Shown here in pieces: positions 20,822 to 29,527 of a stretch of 36,302 nt of DNA (its first letter is position 1; every line of letters begins with the position of its first letter). Below the pieces are notes generated by a model. The model was not told where the DNA came from. It did not search any database and saw nothing but the letters and a program-made list of their open reading frames with translations. The position numbers and the translations under genes are program-made. Origin of the DNA: Acidobacteriota bacterium (lineage in GTDB: Bacteria > Acidobacteriota > Vicinamibacteria > Vicinamibacterales > JAFNAJ01); the NCBI GenBank assembly GCA_016789685.1, contig JAEUQQ010000440.1, positions 1 to 36,302 of the forward strand. The letters run 5' to 3'.

Positions 20822-20874
20822 CTGTCGGCGCAGGCCTGCCACGGGCTTGACAGTGGCAGCGCTTGCGCCGACAG
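20822..20874. repeat. large nested hairpin between the barrel and cupredoxin lipoprotein genes
   Basis: Outer arms CTGTCGGCGCA (20822-20832) and TGCGCCGACAG (20864-20874) pair over 11 bases; inner arms CTGCCAC (20836-20842) and GTGGCAG (20853-20859) add seven, with a near-continuous junction and one bulge. It fills most of the 101-base gap. It may end or stabilise the upstream transcript, or tune read-through into the cupredoxin gene. There is no T-run. Confidence 0.6.
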
Positions 20875-20913
20875 TGTGTGCAGCCAGCTTCAGCGGGCTT
20901 TCGAGGTAGAGGG

Positions 20914-21345
20914 ATGAGGACGAAACTGCTCGTGTGCGCGGCGGTGGCGCTGACCGGGGCGATCGCCTGCGGCGGTGGAGGCGGTTCGGCCCCGACACAA
21001 CCGTCGAACAATGGCGGCGGTGGCACCGCCGGCGGCGGCACGAGTGGCGGGTCGTCGACCACGAACCGCATCACGATCACGGCCACCGGCGTCGACACCA
21101 GGGCGCTGACGATCAAGGTCGGCGAGCGGATCACGGTCACCAACAGCGACTCCCGGGCGCACGAGTTCTCGTCGGATCCCCATCCGGAGCACACCAACTG
21201 CCCGGAGTTGAACCAGATCGGGTTCATCCAGCCGAACCAGACGAAGGAATCTGGCAACTTCGTCACGGCCAAGGCCTGCGGATTCCACGACCACAACCAG
21301 CCGAGCAACGCGTCGTTGCAGGGGCGCGTGACGATCGCGCCGTAG
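20914..21345 (+). CDS. cupredoxin-like lipoprotein
   Basis: A 143-residue protein. A lipoprotein signal ends at C19 (TGAIAC), followed by a Gly/Ser/Thr-rich flexible linker (residues 20-50). Residues 52-143 form a small cupredoxin-like beta-sandwich: TIKVGERITVTNSDSRAHEF with H83, and ACGFHDHNQ with C122, H125 and H127, then QGRVTIAP as last strand. H83, C122 and H125 or H127 are plausible copper ligands; no Met is at the usual axial position, so the site may differ from plastocyanin. The start follows GAGGTAGAGGG. It lies 101 bases after the DUF5777-type gene, across a large hairpin, and may be co-expressed with it. It is the second cupredoxin-like protein of the island. Confidence 0.75.
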   Translation: MRTKLLVCAAVALTGAIACGGGGGSAPTQPSNNGGGGTAGGGTSGGSSTTNRITITATGVDTRALTIKVGERITVTNSDSRAHEFSSDPHPEHTNCPELNQIGFIQPNQTKESGNFVTAKACGFHDHNQPSNASLQGRVTIAP

Positions 21346-21373: not shown

Positions 21374-22546
21374 CTATGCGTCCGCTGGCGGCGGCATCGC
21401 CGCGACGAGTTCGTCGAGCACGCCGAGCGCCAGTTCGATCTCGTCGACCGACGTGTAGTAGTGCGGCGCCATGCGGATCCCAGCGCCAGGCCGATAGTCG
21501 ACGATCACTTCGCGGGCGATGAGCGCCCGGGCAATCGACTCCCCGTTGGGCAAGTCAATCGTGACGGTACCGCCGCGGGCGGCGTCGGCCCTCGGCGTCC
21601 GCACGCGCCACCCCCGCGCGTCGGCGTGGTCCATCACGCGGCGTGTCAGCGCGAGCGAGTGCGCGCGGATGCGGTCGAGGCCAACCTCGTGCACCAGCCG
21701 GTAGCCGGCGCGCGCAGAGTAGAACGTCGGCACGTTCGGGGTCCCGCTCTGAAACCGCTCGAGGCCATCGGCGTACTCGATTGCACCGACGGCGAAGTCG
21801 AACGGGCGCCGGTGCGCCGCCCATCCGACGAGTGCGGGCTCGAGCCGCGGAACCAGGTCGGGCCTGACGTAGAGGTAGCCAGCGCCGGGCCCGCCACACA
21901 ACCACTTCACCGATCCGCCGACCGCGAAGTCGGCCTCGAGTGCGCCGAGCGCCAGCGGAATCGTGCCCGCCGCCTGGTAGGCGTCGGCCACCACGCGGGC
22001 CCCGACGCTGTGCGCCTTGTCGATGATGGCCCTGGCATCCTGGATGGCCGACGATCGGAACAGCACGTACGAGAACGGCACGAGGACCGTTCGTTCGTCG
22101 ATGGCGTCGAGCAGGGCCTCGGTCGCCGGGTGGATGCCGTCGGGCGATTCGACAACCACGATCTCGGCGCCGTACTTCCGCCAGTTCTCGAACAGGTACA
22201 GGTTCGACGGGAACTCGACGTCGCTGACGACGATGCGGTTGCGGGTGCCGGAAAAATCGCAGGCCGACAGGATGATGCCCAGGGCCACCGCGACGTTCTG
22301 GTGCATCGAAATCGTCCCTGGCCCCACGCCGAGAATCGGGGCGAGCAGGTCGCCGGTCTCGCGTCCCATGTCCCACCAGCCCTCGTGCCACGCGCGGACG
22401 CCGCGCGTCGCCCAGGCCTCGCAGAACGCGCGGACGTCGTCGTACACCGCGCGCGGCATCGCGCCGAGCGAGTGGCTCACGAGGTACGTCGTGTGCTCGA
22501 GGATCGGGAACTCCGTGCGGTACGACGCGAGGCTGCGCTCTGTCAT
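21374..22546 (-). CDS. kynureninase-like PLP enzyme (aminotransferase class V fold)
   Basis: A 390-residue fold-type I PLP enzyme. Its motifs track kynureninase: SHSLGAMP (24-31; NSLG in kynureninase), SDVEFPSNLYLFENW (108-122), VLFRSS, the PLP-binding D188 in VVADAYQAAG, K214 in GGSVKWLCGGPGAGYLYV, and PFDF plus RFQSGTPNVP. The Schiff-base lysine is present, but the residue before it is Val213, where classical kynureninases have a catalytic Tyr, and the N-terminal Asn is His24. So the fold is kynureninase-like while the reaction is uncertain. The ATG at 22546 starts 26 bases after the boxB stop codon on the same strand, so it belongs to the boxC-boxB operon, perhaps making or handling an aromatic acid that enters the pathway. 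Another class V activity is possible. Confidence 0.8.
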   Translation of the reverse strand: MTERSLASYRTEFPILEHTTYLVSHSLGAMPRAVYDDVRAFCEAWATRGVRAWHEGWWDMGRETGDLLAPILGVGPGTISMHQNVAVALGIILSACDFSGTRNRIVVSDVEFPSNLYLFENWRKYGAEIVVVESPDGIHPATEALLDAIDERTVLVPFSYVLFRSSAIQDARAIIDKAHSVGARVVADAYQAAGTIPLALGALEADFAVGGSVKWLCGGPGAGYLYVRPDLVPRLEPALVGWAAHRRPFDFAVGAIEYADGLERFQSGTPNVPTFYSARAGYRLVHEVGLDRIRAHSLALTRRVMDHADARGWRVRTPRADAARGGTVTIDLPNGESIARALIAREVIVDYRPGAGIRMAPHYYTSVDEIELALGVLDELVAAMPPPADA

Positions 22547-22572: not shown

Positions 22573-23997
<1,425 letters not shown>

Positions 23998-24064
23998 GTC
24001 GGTGCCTGCCGGTCGTCGAAGTCCAGGGAGAGGGACACCCGCGTGCCCCGCGGCCGCGCCCGCG

Positions 24065-25723
24065 TCAGGTGCGCGTGTAGTCGAACTCCGCCCGGCCGCT
24101 CGCGTTACCGAACGCGCGCAGCGCGCCACGCTCGCCCACCGCGTTGGGCCGCTGGAAGATCCAGTTCTGCCACGCCGTGAGGCGGCCGAAGATCTTCGTC
24201 TCGATCGTCTCGGGCCCAGCAAAGCGCAGGTTGGCCTCGAGGCCCGTCAGGGCATCGGGCGACATCGCCGCGCGCGCCTCGATCGCCAGCCGCACTTCGT
24301 CGTCCCAGTCGATCTCGTCGGGCGCGAACGTCACCAGCCCCGCATCCATCGCCGACAGCGGGTCGAACGGCTCACGCTCCTCGGCGAGGTCGGCGACCAG
24401 TTGCGGCTCGCCGAGAAAGCGCGTGTCGAGCCGCGTCAGGCCATTGCTCATCGGCAGTGGCCCGAAGTTGAGCGGCGACAGGGCCACCGTCGTCGGGCGC
24501 GTCTCGTCGTCGAGCATGTAGATGCGATCGGACGCCAGCGCCAGTTCGAAGAGACACCCCGCGAAGCACGACCCAGGTTCGACCAGCGCAATGAAGCTCT
24601 TCGCGGTGAGATCCAGGCGCTTGAGCGTGCGCTTCATGAAATGCAGGATCTCTCGGACGAGCCAATCTCCGGCCAGCGATGCCAGCGTCGCATCGACCGC
24701 CCTGACCGCGTCGCCGTCGCCGGCGGTCCGCACGACGACCGTGCCAATCAACGGCTCGTTGAGGCGCAGGTGCAGCAGCATCGCGTCGAGCTCACGAAAC
24801 GCACGCAGCGCCCAGAACTGGTCACCGGCCGCGTGGATGGCGTCGGCGGTCTGTGGCTGCACGCCCGACGGTCCCGCGACCGTCAGGTGCGCCACACGCG
24901 CCTGGCGCTCGACGCGCAGCGACACCAGCGCACCATCGGCGCCATCGGCGCCGTAACGGATCCCGAGCGGCCCCAGCACGATGCCCGTCGCCCCGTCAGG
25001 GCGGTCAGACGCTGCCGCCAGGTCGCGGGCACGGGCCTGCACCGTCTCGTCGAAGCGGCTTCGGGCCACCGCGCGGTCGACCAGGCGCCACTGCACGGCG
25101 CGCTTGCCGCGCACCCCTTCGACCAGCGTGCTGAACACGTCCGCGAGGTCACGGCGCACCCGCCGCTTGTCGACGACCCGCGTCAACCCGCCGGTGCCCG
25201 GCAGCACGCCGAGCAGCGGCGCCTCGGGCAGGCTCACCGACGCCGCCCCGTCGTCGACGAGGAAGATCTCGTCGCAGGCCAGTGCCAGTTCGTAGCCGCC
25301 GCCGGCGCAGATGCCGTTCACTGCCGCCAGGAACCTGAGGCCGGAGTGCCGCGAGGCGTCTTCGATGCCATTGCGCGTTTCGTTGGTGAACTTGCAGAAG
25401 TTGACCTTGTGCCCGTGCGACGAGCCGGCGAGCATGAAGATGTTCGCGCCGGCGCAGAAGACGCGGTCCTTGCCACTGCGGACGATGACGACGCGGACCT
25501 CGGGATGCTCGAACCGGAGGCGCTCGACCGCATCGGCGAGTTCGATGTCGACCGCCAGGTCGTAGGAGTTGAGCTTCAGCCGGTAGTCGTCGCGCAGGCC
25601 CGCGTCTTCGGTCACATCCATGGTGAGCGTGGCCACCTGGCCGTCGCACGACAGACGCCAATGCCGGTAGCGATCCGGGTGCGTCTCGCACCGGATCGGT
25701 GGCGCCACGATTGATTGTTCCAT
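24065..25723 (-). CDS. boxC: 2,3-epoxybenzoyl-CoA dihydrolase (benzoyl-CoA-dihydrodiol lyase) BoxC
   Basis: A 552-residue member of the crotonase (enoyl-CoA hydratase) superfamily, at the typical BoxC length, about twice a single crotonase because of a second, degenerate crotonase-like half. Residues 75-155 hold the canonical oxyanion-hole segments (RVFCAGANIFMLAGSS and AAVNGICAGGGYELALACDEI). The second half has ALVEPGSCFAGCLFELALASD, and the C-terminus KIFGRLTAWQNWIFQRPNAVGERGAL (read in two parts) is typical of BoxC. It opens the ring of 2,3-epoxybenzoyl-CoA, using two waters and releasing formate. It is the first gene of the boxC-boxB-kynureninase-like operon. The ATG at 25723 lies eight bases after a GATAAT box and has no ribosome site, so its mRNA is probably leaderless. 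Confidence 0.95.
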   Translation of the reverse strand: MEQSIVAPPIRCETHPDRYRHWRLSCDGQVATLTMDVTEDAGLRDDYRLKLNSYDLAVDIELADAVERLRFEHPEVRVVIVRSGKDRVFCAGANIFMLAGSSHGHKVNFCKFTNETRNGIEDASRHSGLRFLAAVNGICAGGGYELALACDEIFLVDDGAASVSLPEAPLLGVLPGTGGLTRVVDKRRVRRDLADVFSTLVEGVRGKRAVQWRLVDRAVARSRFDETVQARARDLAAASDRPDGATGIVLGPLGIRYGADGADGALVSLRVERQARVAHLTVAGPSGVQPQTADAIHAAGDQFWALRAFRELDAMLLHLRLNEPLIGTVVVRTAGDGDAVRAVDATLASLAGDWLVREILHFMKRTLKRLDLTAKSFIALVEPGSCFAGCLFELALASDRIYMLDDETRPTTVALSPLNFGPLPMSNGLTRLDTRFLGEPQLVADLAEEREPFDPLSAMDAGLVTFAPDEIDWDDEVRLAIEARAAMSPDALTGLEANLRFAGPETIETKIFGRLTAWQNWIFQRPNAVGERGALRAFGNASGRAEFDYTRT

Positions 25724-26108: not shown

Positions 26109-28523
26109 CTACGGCAACAGCGTCAGCCGTGCCGTCACGGCGGCGTCTACCGCCCCGCGCGAGTATGGCAGCGGCACATAGCGCACCGCCTGCCACGACG
26201 CCAGCATGTCGGCGACGTGCGGTGACCCCACCTGGCCGCTCTGCCCGAGCGTGACGACGGCTTCCGACCGGTCGAAATCGGCGAGATCGAGCACCTGCCG
26301 GTACGACGACACCACCGTTTGCGATTCCGACCGCATCACCGGCGTAATCGTGGTGGAGTTCCCGCCGAACTCGGCGCGGTGGCTGAACCAGCGCCGGAGC
26401 AACCAGTGCGCGTCGAACGGCACGTGTGGGAATCCGACCTCGTTGAGCGTTCCCCAGCGCCAGGCGTCCTCGTTCGTCGTCCCGGTCCGTACATCCAGAG
26501 ACGCGAGCGCCGCCCCGAGGGCTGTCGCCATCACCGACTCGCAAGACTCTCGATCGGGAGTCCGCCGATCGTCGCACCAGGCGTCCTCGGTGCGCATCAC
26601 GATCCCGTGGATTGCCTTGGTCGGCCAATGCGGAAGCCCGGCCCACTCCTTCCACAAGGGGTCGCCGAGGTCGTCCCTGAACAGGCCTTCGACCAGCGCG
26701 TCGTACCAGGCCATGTAGATCGCCGCTGACGACGAGTCGCGTGCAAGCGTCCCGTCCCAGGCCTTGAGGCGGGCGATCGCCGCCAGGTGCCGCGGGTCGG
26801 TCGTCACCGTCCGCAGCATCCAGGGCAGCAGGACCTTGACCTGCGCCGACCGCACGTCGGCGTGCATCGCCTTGATGTCGTCCGGGCCCAGCGTGGGCTT
26901 CGCCTCGATCAGCTCGGTGATGCGGGCAGCGCGGTAGCCGGGCTCGAAGTTGGTGCTGATCACGTGCCGTGAGCCGTCGGGCAGGGCCTGGTTGTTGGCC
27001 GTGACCACGAAGCCCCGCGTCGGGTCGGCAATGCGGGGCATCTCCGACAGCGGCACGTAGCCGCGCCATTCGTGTTCGCGCGTCCAGCCAGGCACCGGCA
27101 GCGTGCCATCGCCGGTCGGCCGGATCGGCAGCGCCCCGTACGCCATGTAGCCGATGTGCCCGTCGACGTCGGCGTACACCCAGTTCTGGATGGGCGCGTG
27201 GTACGACGCCATGGCCGCCTCGAACTCGCGCCAGTTCTGCGCCAGGTTCACGCCCCGGAAGGCTGCAAAGGTCGTGTCGCGGTCGTCGAGCGCCGTCCAG
27301 CGCAATGCCAGCGCCTCGGTCGCCCCCTTCGTGATGTCGGTGACGATCGGGCCGTGGCGGGTGCTCCGGACGGCGATGACGACGTCGGGGGCCCCCTTGA
27401 CCTTGATCGTCTCGTAGGCGACCGACATCGGTTCCCACGCGCCGTCGTACTCGGCCGCGCCCTCGGCGTTGAGCCGCTCGATGTAGAGATCCTGCACGTC
27501 GGCCATGAGGTTCGTCACGCCCCAGGCGATGCGCTGGTTGTGGCCGATCACGACCCCGGGCACGCCCGGCAGCGTCGCGCCGATCGCGTTGAGCGGGCCG
27601 CCCTCGACGTGCGCCAGGTACCAGACGGCGGGCGACCGCGTGCCGAGGTGCGGGTCGTTGGCCAGCAACGGCTTCCCCGTCGTCGACCGCGCCCCGGAGA
27701 CCACCCAGTTGTTGCTCGCGCCGAGGGCGTCGAGGGCGTACGGCGACGCCGGCACCAGCGGCGCGGCGCGGGCAATCGCGTCGAGGACGCCGGCTCCGAT
27801 CACGCGGGCATCGGCAGCCGGCGCCTGCGGGGGCGTGGAGGGCGTCAGCCCCTCGGGGAGGATCACCGGGCCTCCCGCGGTGTAGGCGGGCATCAGTGCC
27901 CGGGCACCGTCCAGCCCGACGCGACCCGCGATGCGGGCGCGCAGCACTTCGTCGCGATAGTTCGTCGACAGGTTGAGCGCCATCACCTTCGACCAGGCGA
28001 GGGCGTCCTCTGCGGTATACGGCGCTGGGGCCGTTGCGAGCAGGGCGTATTCGACGGGCAGGCCGCGCCCGGCATGGCTCGAGATGAACGCATTCACGCC
28101 GCGCACGTAGGCATCGAGATACGCGCGCGACTCCGCGGGCAACGACTGCATGCCGGTGGCCGCGGCGCGGTAGAGGCCCAGCGTGCGGAACAGGCGATCT
28201 GTCTCGACGGCCGCCGGCCCGAGGAGTTCGGCCAGGCGCCCGGCCGCGAGCCGGCGCTGGAACTCGATCTGCCAGAGGCGGTCTTGCGCGTGCGCGTACC
28301 CGAGGCCGAACGCCGCGTCGTGTTCCGAGGCCGCGCGCACGTGCGGAATGCCCCAGGCATCGCGCAGGATCTCGATCGCGGCCGACGGCCCCTGGACGCG
28401 AATGGTGCCCGACGTCTGCGGCAGCGCCGCCTTCACCCGGAACCAGGCGTAGCCGCCGCCGGCCAGCAGGGCGAGCAGCAGCCCCACCACGGCCCACTTC
28501 AACAGCTGAACCATGACACGCAT
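26109..28523 (-). CDS. penicillin acylase family (Ntn hydrolase) amidase, membrane-anchored
   Basis: An 804-residue protein. Residues 4-27 form a signal anchor (LLKWAVVGLLLALLAGGGYAWF). The alpha-chain region begins with IEILRDAWGIPHVRAASEHDAAFGLGYAHAQDRLWQIE, split over the usual landmarks. The catalytic N-terminal Ser of the beta chain is S270 in GASNNWVVSG, followed by GKPLLANDPHLG, and the oxyanion Asn segment VTANNQALP is present. The family self-cleaves into two chains and hydrolyses amides: penicillins, acyl-homoserine lactones or N-acyl peptides. The substrate cannot be told here; quorum-signal acylase is one option. The ATG at 28523 is preferred since an upstream ATG (28535) overlaps a TATGCT box seven bases before it. 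The gene is divergent from lipA. Confidence 0.9.
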   Translation of the reverse strand: MRVMVQLLKWAVVGLLLALLAGGGYAWFRVKAALPQTSGTIRVQGPSAAIEILRDAWGIPHVRAASEHDAAFGLGYAHAQDRLWQIEFQRRLAAGRLAELLGPAAVETDRLFRTLGLYRAAATGMQSLPAESRAYLDAYVRGVNAFISSHAGRGLPVEYALLATAPAPYTAEDALAWSKVMALNLSTNYRDEVLRARIAGRVGLDGARALMPAYTAGGPVILPEGLTPSTPPQAPAADARVIGAGVLDAIARAAPLVPASPYALDALGASNNWVVSGARSTTGKPLLANDPHLGTRSPAVWYLAHVEGGPLNAIGATLPGVPGVVIGHNQRIAWGVTNLMADVQDLYIERLNAEGAAEYDGAWEPMSVAYETIKVKGAPDVVIAVRSTRHGPIVTDITKGATEALALRWTALDDRDTTFAAFRGVNLAQNWREFEAAMASYHAPIQNWVYADVDGHIGYMAYGALPIRPTGDGTLPVPGWTREHEWRGYVPLSEMPRIADPTRGFVVTANNQALPDGSRHVISTNFEPGYRAARITELIEAKPTLGPDDIKAMHADVRSAQVKVLLPWMLRTVTTDPRHLAAIARLKAWDGTLARDSSSAAIYMAWYDALVEGLFRDDLGDPLWKEWAGLPHWPTKAIHGIVMRTEDAWCDDRRTPDRESCESVMATALGAALASLDVRTGTTNEDAWRWGTLNEVGFPHVPFDAHWLLRRWFSHRAEFGGNSTTITPVMRSESQTVVSSYRQVLDLADFDRSEAVVTLGQSGQVGSPHVADMLASWQAVRYVPLPYSRGAVDAAVTARLTLLP

Positions 28524-28621
28524 GCGCGAGAGCATACCCCAGTCCCTGCGCCAATCCGTGCCCGCCTCCCCCGCCTCCCGCCGCGGGTCGGGGCACGCCG
28601 GCGTGCTACGATCCACGGGAT

Positions 28622-29527
<906 letters not shown>

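Follow-up and report, generated by a model that had tools for sequence, protein, structure and literature searches.

Downstream of the box (benzoyl-CoA) genes boxC and boxB, the stretch of Acidobacteriota DNA analysed here (36,302 nucleotides, hereafter the window) carries a gene for a kynureninase-like PLP enzyme, here named KynL, in which residues of the kynureninase active site are exchanged. The locus raises the question of which reaction this enzyme catalyses and whether that reaction is linked to the box pathway. The three genes concerned are:

21374..22546, minus strand: KynL, kynureninase-like PLP enzyme of 390 amino acids (Lys214, Val213, Gln191, Asp188, Trp242, Arg358)
22573..23997, minus strand: boxB, benzoyl-CoA 2,3-epoxidase subunit (TIGR03225, 729 bits)
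24065..25723, minus strand: boxC, 2,3-epoxybenzoyl-CoA dihydrolase (TIGR03222, 841 bits)

Both box genes passed their curated models (cut-offs: 499 bits for TIGR03225 and 712 bits for TIGR03222). The start of boxB was read from the translation as the ATG inside a longer open reading frame (22573-24222), and TIGR03225 was run on 22576-24030. BoxC lies upstream of boxB, and the gap of 26 bases from the boxB stop to the KynL ATG, already noted in the sequence-only reading, was confirmed. A gene for tryptophan 2,3-dioxygenase (TDO), a formamidase or an anthranilate enzyme was not seen next to KynL in the window. The box genes are adjoined by a penicillin amidase gene (26109-28616, minus strand) and a lipA-type radical SAM gene (28622-29527, plus strand), an arrangement that is also present at locus L126 with box genes and at locus L118 without them. 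Convergent with KynL, a small Cys/His-containing, secreted-looking protein is encoded at 20863-21345 (plus strand).

The fold of KynL was compared by sequence and by structure. The best PDB match by sequence was the kynureninase of P. fluorescens (1QZ9, E-value 1e-43), and the KYNU_C domain was detected with 60 bits (cut-off: 27) in a class V aminotransferase fold. The predicted model (pLDDT 91.7) had the same 1QZ9 as its closest solved structure (378 aligned residues with an rmsd of 2.3, Z 46.6 and 29% identity), followed by a human kynureninase variant (Z 41.8) and a cysteine desulfurase (Z 41.1). These results uphold the kynureninase fold proposed earlier. Cysteine desulfurases have this fold in common, and since their Z scores (up to 41) are about as high as those of human kynureninase (41-42), the reaction cannot be read from the fold alone. 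The kynureninase equivalog model TIGR01814 gave 124.3 bits for KynL, about half of its curated cut-off (246.4).

For the comparison of active-site residues, alignment rows with fewer than 300 amino acids or more than one stop were dropped, which left 117 rows; only one of the eight class V loci from the window's own genome was left as an outgroup. The canonical rows (n = 10) comprised the P. fluorescens and human enzymes and eight sequences from relatives, all eight above the TIGR01814 cut-off. In the alignment with canonical kynureninases KynL retains K214, D188, W242 and R358, which we take to be the PLP lysine, the aspartate, the tryptophan and the substrate-side arginine of kynureninase. 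Val213 aligns with Tyr226 of 1QZ9 and with Tyr275 of the human enzyme (3E9K), and the residue before the PLP lysine was Tyr in 10/10 canonical rows and Val in all 24 rows of the clade to which the window KynL belongs (clade A). A tyrosine next to the PLP lysine matters for kynureninase catalysis. Gln191 occupies the site of the canonical His (204 in P. fluorescens, His253 in human), which was His in 10/10 canonical and Gln in 24/24 clade-A rows, and in the HSLG motif (residues 25-28) His25 aligns with Asn35 (P. fluorescens) and Asn74 (human). The PLP lysine K214, the Val in place of Tyr and the HSLG in place of NSLG noticed beforehand were thus borne out by the alignment with 1QZ9 and 3E9K, while the change to Gln191 had not been mentioned. 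Compared with canonical KynU/KYNU (EC 3.7.1.3; TIGR01814; 1QZ9, 3E9K), KynL is alike in fold, length and KYNU_C domain and keeps the PLP lysine, the Asp, Trp256/305, Arg375/434 (P. fluorescens/human) and the D-x-R and RG motifs, whereas it has Val for Tyr, Gln for His, HSLG for NSLG and WLC for YLN and falls into a separate clade.

To place these changes in a wider family, 555 stretches encoding a KynL relative were confirmed, and the best 80 of the 555 were analysed as loci (16 in clade A and 64 in clade B). Clade B contains cousins of the window KynL with 50-57% identity. In a tree of 85 rows (32 of the 64 clade-B rows; midpoint root only, long branches flagged) the ten canonical kynureninases and clade A were separate with 100/100 support each, and clades A, B and D grouped together at 99/92. 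The phylogeny suggested as a check on the earlier reading thus leaves KynL outside the canonical kynureninase clade. By sequence, the KynL family is separate from canonical kynureninase and wide among bacteria. It is common in Acidobacteriota and was also found in metagenome-assembled genomes (MAGs) labelled Nitrospirota and Planctomycetota, where such labels may be wrong. One example is L037 from a MAG labelled Acidimicrobiia, where KynL and the genes around it closely resemble their counterparts at L036 from a Vicinamibacterales MAG, perhaps due to a mis-binned contig.

The clade-B loci had been gathered with patterns that included VKWLCGGP, so that the Val in 64/64 of them is no independent evidence, and because of this partly motif-fetched set a motif-free sample of the phylum was drawn. 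Matches at an E-value of 1e-60 or better were obtained in 61 of 297 phylum genomes, and the 57 loci not already in the set were fetched, some of them from the same genomes as earlier clade loci. Residue 213 was Leu in 28, Val in 22, Ile in 6 and His in 1 of the 57 loci, and residue 191 was Gln in 50 and His in 7. Lys214, Asp188, Trp242, W53, W57 and F112 were kept in 57/57 and R358, D350 and R352 in 56/57 with one gap. With Tyr in 0/57 loci, its loss is a trait of the family, and the 555 confirmed stretches together with an aliphatic residue in 56/57 loci show that the altered residue 213 is not due to chance. Position 25 was Asn in 28 and His in 27 loci (gap in 2), and the HSLG or NSLG motif therefore varies inside the family. 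At six positions clade A and clade B each conserve a residue of their own (e.g., A88 versus C, F119 versus Y, A192 versus S), which may count against a kynureninase function of the window enzyme.

The genomic context of clade B points to tryptophan. TDO was encoded in the fetched flank (up to 8 kb) of 30 of the 64 loci and an alpha/beta hydrolase, possibly a formamidase, in the flank of nine others; amino acid permease matches (12), RidA (16) and benzoate-CoA ligase-family genes (10) also occurred in the 64 flanks. At L048 the gene order is SDR-RidA-MarR-ECH-ACAD-OYE-KynL-TDO-benzoate-CoA ligase-family gene, with tiny or absent gaps. The L048 OYE matched part of the second half of PRK08255 (136 bits) and an FAD monooxygenase at L104 its first half (residues 1-384, 469 bits), both below the model cut-off, which is set for the fused protein. 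As judged from gene neighbourhoods, this is the layout that would be expected for a route from tryptophan via kynurenine and anthranilate to 2-aminobenzoyl-CoA, and the ligase-family, ECH, ACAD and monooxygenase/reductase-like genes are shared with the 2-aminobenzoyl-CoA (abm) pathway of Proteobacteria (PMC8879955). The cousins near TDO carry the same Val213/Gln191 pair as the window KynL. In the phylum sample, TDO was found in the fetched flank of 15/22 Val-type loci, several of which are clade-B loci, versus 0/35 others, and it was likewise lacking from the flanks of the eight clade-D loci (0/8). Next to some of these non-Val relatives lies a gene for an amino acid permease or an arylformamidase-like protein; at the Leu213-type locus L207 only 24 bases separate KynL from an arylformamidase-type gene (213 bits with TIGR03035, slightly below the cut-off of 223).

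Canonical KynU above the TIGR01814 cut-off was detected in none of 50 KynL-family genomes (the genomes of 50 of the 80 loci). In a set of 60 relatives it was present in 0/24 KynL-family genomes (one of which, G044, rests on a fragment) versus 8/36 others, without overlap (Fisher p 0.017, a guide only as the genomes are related). The sequence-only reading had proposed that the changed residues stand for a different C-C or C-N cleavage, and this has become less likely given the Val213/Gln191 cousins near TDO and the genomes without canonical KynU above the cut-off. The exchange of Tyr for Val in a kynureninase-like protein, as a family trait, is alone no evidence of a new reaction.

Sources of kynurenine were more uneven. 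A TDO-family match was obtained in 31 of the 50 KynL-family genomes (9/16 in clade A, 22/34 in clade B), and the window's own genome has a stand-alone TDO on another contig, in two pieces of 148 and 74 bits. TDO was found in the flank of 0/16 clade-A loci, which counts against the kynureninase reading. Among 14 clade-A relatives with a full KynL a TDO-family match was absent in eight, two of which (G006 and G018) are single-contig genomes. This absence speaks most strongly for the possibility that clade A uses another substrate or imported kynurenine. Among the other six, G000 has a full TDO, G053 a fragment, and G002, G022, G026 and G050 only a distant TDO-like protein (29-32% identical to TDO), where G022, G050 and G053 were assessed from the corresponding regions of G068, G071 and G060. 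A distant TDO-like family with an IGTQGTPV-type motif (L229-L236, 28-34% identity to a TDO) was also observed in eight clade-A genomes on contigs other than that of KynL. IDO as an alternative source gave matches in 0/26 genomes, and the control gave no match either. A published count lists one Acidobacteria genome in which four or more of the five steps of the kynurenine pathway are present (PMC4217691).

Clade-A KynL occurs with boxC-boxB in the window and at L033, L034, L035, L038, L041, L043, L120 and L126, and with boxB at a contig edge at L039; L119 duplicates L033, and several other clade-A loci are too short to tell. At 7 of the 16 clade-A loci (L033, L034, L035, L038, L039, L041 and L043) the box genes are accompanied by HCDH and mostly by ALDH and ECH; unlike this common layout, the window has no ALDH, HCDH or ECH beside KynL. 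The aldehyde dehydrogenase of the box operon had generic matches that gave no specific name. Relatives of the small secreted-looking protein of the window are encoded in the flanks of L035, L036, L039 and L041. An amidohydrolase gene (PF04909) lies upstream of KynL at L030, L032, L033 and L035 (L035:5930-6805); it may be a decarboxylase of the 3-hydroxyanthranilate route, its two PDB matches being an uncharacterised protein and a predicted amidohydrolase.

BoxB was present in 10 of the 15 clade-A relatives, among them G000, versus 8 of 45 others. The clade-A figure includes G044, for which both genes were scored from fragments (KynL is cut by a contig edge, and BoxB gave two partial matches that stay below the cut-off), while a weak BoxB match in G042 was left out of the figure for the others. 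G002, G006, G018, G028 and G055 encode KynL without BoxB, two of them (the single-contig G006 and G018) also without TDO, and at L118, L115 and L116 KynL remains near a lipA-type gene in the absence of box genes. KynL therefore does not need the box pathway. The synteny with boxCB that the sequence-only reading had named as a check recurs in related genomes, while in others boxB is unlinked or absent; the feeding of the box pathway by KynL is possible and is weakened by the KynL genomes without boxB. The boxB and boxC genes of the window are shared with the box pathway of Proteobacteria (PMC8879955), which differs from the clade-A arrangement with KynL beside or inside the box operon and without detected BoxA or benzoate-CoA ligase. 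A benzoate-CoA ligase (TIGR02262, E-value 1e-100 or better) was found in 0/10 clade-A genomes with BoxB and, among the 15 clade-A relatives, only in G002, itself without BoxB. BoxA above the cut-off was found in 0/18 genomes (G000 and 17 relatives, 13 with BoxB), nine box-bearing clade-A genomes among them, and no control genome passed the cut-off either. The models behind these absences were trained on other organisms. BoxB may depend on a different reductase in these genomes. A match to the monooxygenase half of PRK08255 was obtained in 2/14 clade-A genomes (G002 and G005).

Several other explanations were weighed against a divergent kynureninase. If KynL were not a C-C hydrolase but a class V enzyme of the cysteine desulfurase or C-S lyase type, this would fit the high structural scores to SufS-type enzymes (Z 39-41) and the Gln191 that other class V rows also have (10/10 X, 1/1 O). 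SufS/IscS-type cysteine desulfurases have a catalytic Cys near the C-terminus; KynL has no Cys after residue 217, and with kynureninase as the top match by sequence and structure, a KYNU_C domain and cousins near TDO we regard this function as highly improbable. It is unlikely, though less so, that the substrate of clade A has changed to a different beta-aroyl-alanine or a beta-keto amino acid of similar kind, from which the box pathway would be supplied with an aromatic acid. Kynureninase accepts beta-benzoylalanine as a substrate, and the full support of clade A in the tree, its recurrent box neighbourhood with the higher frequency of BoxB and the missing TDO matches all speak for such a shift. 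The main active-site residues are, however, the same as in tryptophan-linked clade B, the BoxB-less clade-A genomes exist, and among the operon genes none was recognised that could provide such an amino acid. A more specific form, in which KynL-bearing vicinamibacterial box operons without a recognisable BoxA or benzoate-CoA ligase would constitute a distinct aryl-alanine route (the aromatic acid released by KynL, anthranilate or another, reaching BoxBC as its CoA thioester via an unrecognised ligase, with a substrate other than plain benzoyl-CoA), appears doubtful to us.

The position of the gene could also be incidental, with KynL as a kynureninase and old neighbour of lipA alongside which box genes were gained and lost. 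Its proximity to a lipA-type gene both at the box-less L118, L115 and L116 and in the box-bearing window and L126 agrees with this, as does the relative of the L126 penicillin amidase gene retained at L118; the same strand, the 26-base gap and the recurrent position between boxB and HCDH/ECH argue instead for co-transcription. We consider incidental placement somewhat unlikely on balance. It concerns the position and not the reaction, and is compatible with a divergent kynureninase.

That KynL is a divergent kynureninase outside the canonical KynU family is the probable explanation. From homology and gene neighbourhoods we infer that it would act as a PLP-dependent hydrolase that splits L-kynurenine, or a closely similar beta-aroyl-alanine, between C-beta and C-gamma and yields L-alanine together with anthranilate (or the aryl acid that corresponds to the substrate). 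The kynureninase mechanism has been described as ketimine formation, water addition aided by the PLP phosphate and C-beta/C-gamma cleavage (PMC7461572, section 10). In KynL the reaction would run without the canonical Tyr, the residue there being aliphatic in the family and the His near PLP usually Gln. In the genome of the window KynL could act after the stand-alone TDO from another contig, and co-expression with the box genes, like any metabolic link to them, may accompany this role.

The literature matches listed, mainly open papers and including PMC12451956, PMC8879955, PMC4217691 and PMC7461572, contained no description of the KynL family in their accessible parts. If the proposed function holds, KynL would represent a second kynureninase family that dispenses with the Tyr of the kynureninases known so far and would account for this step in genomes in which the standard model detects no kynureninase, and the family would provide a natural test of the role of this Tyr in kynureninase.
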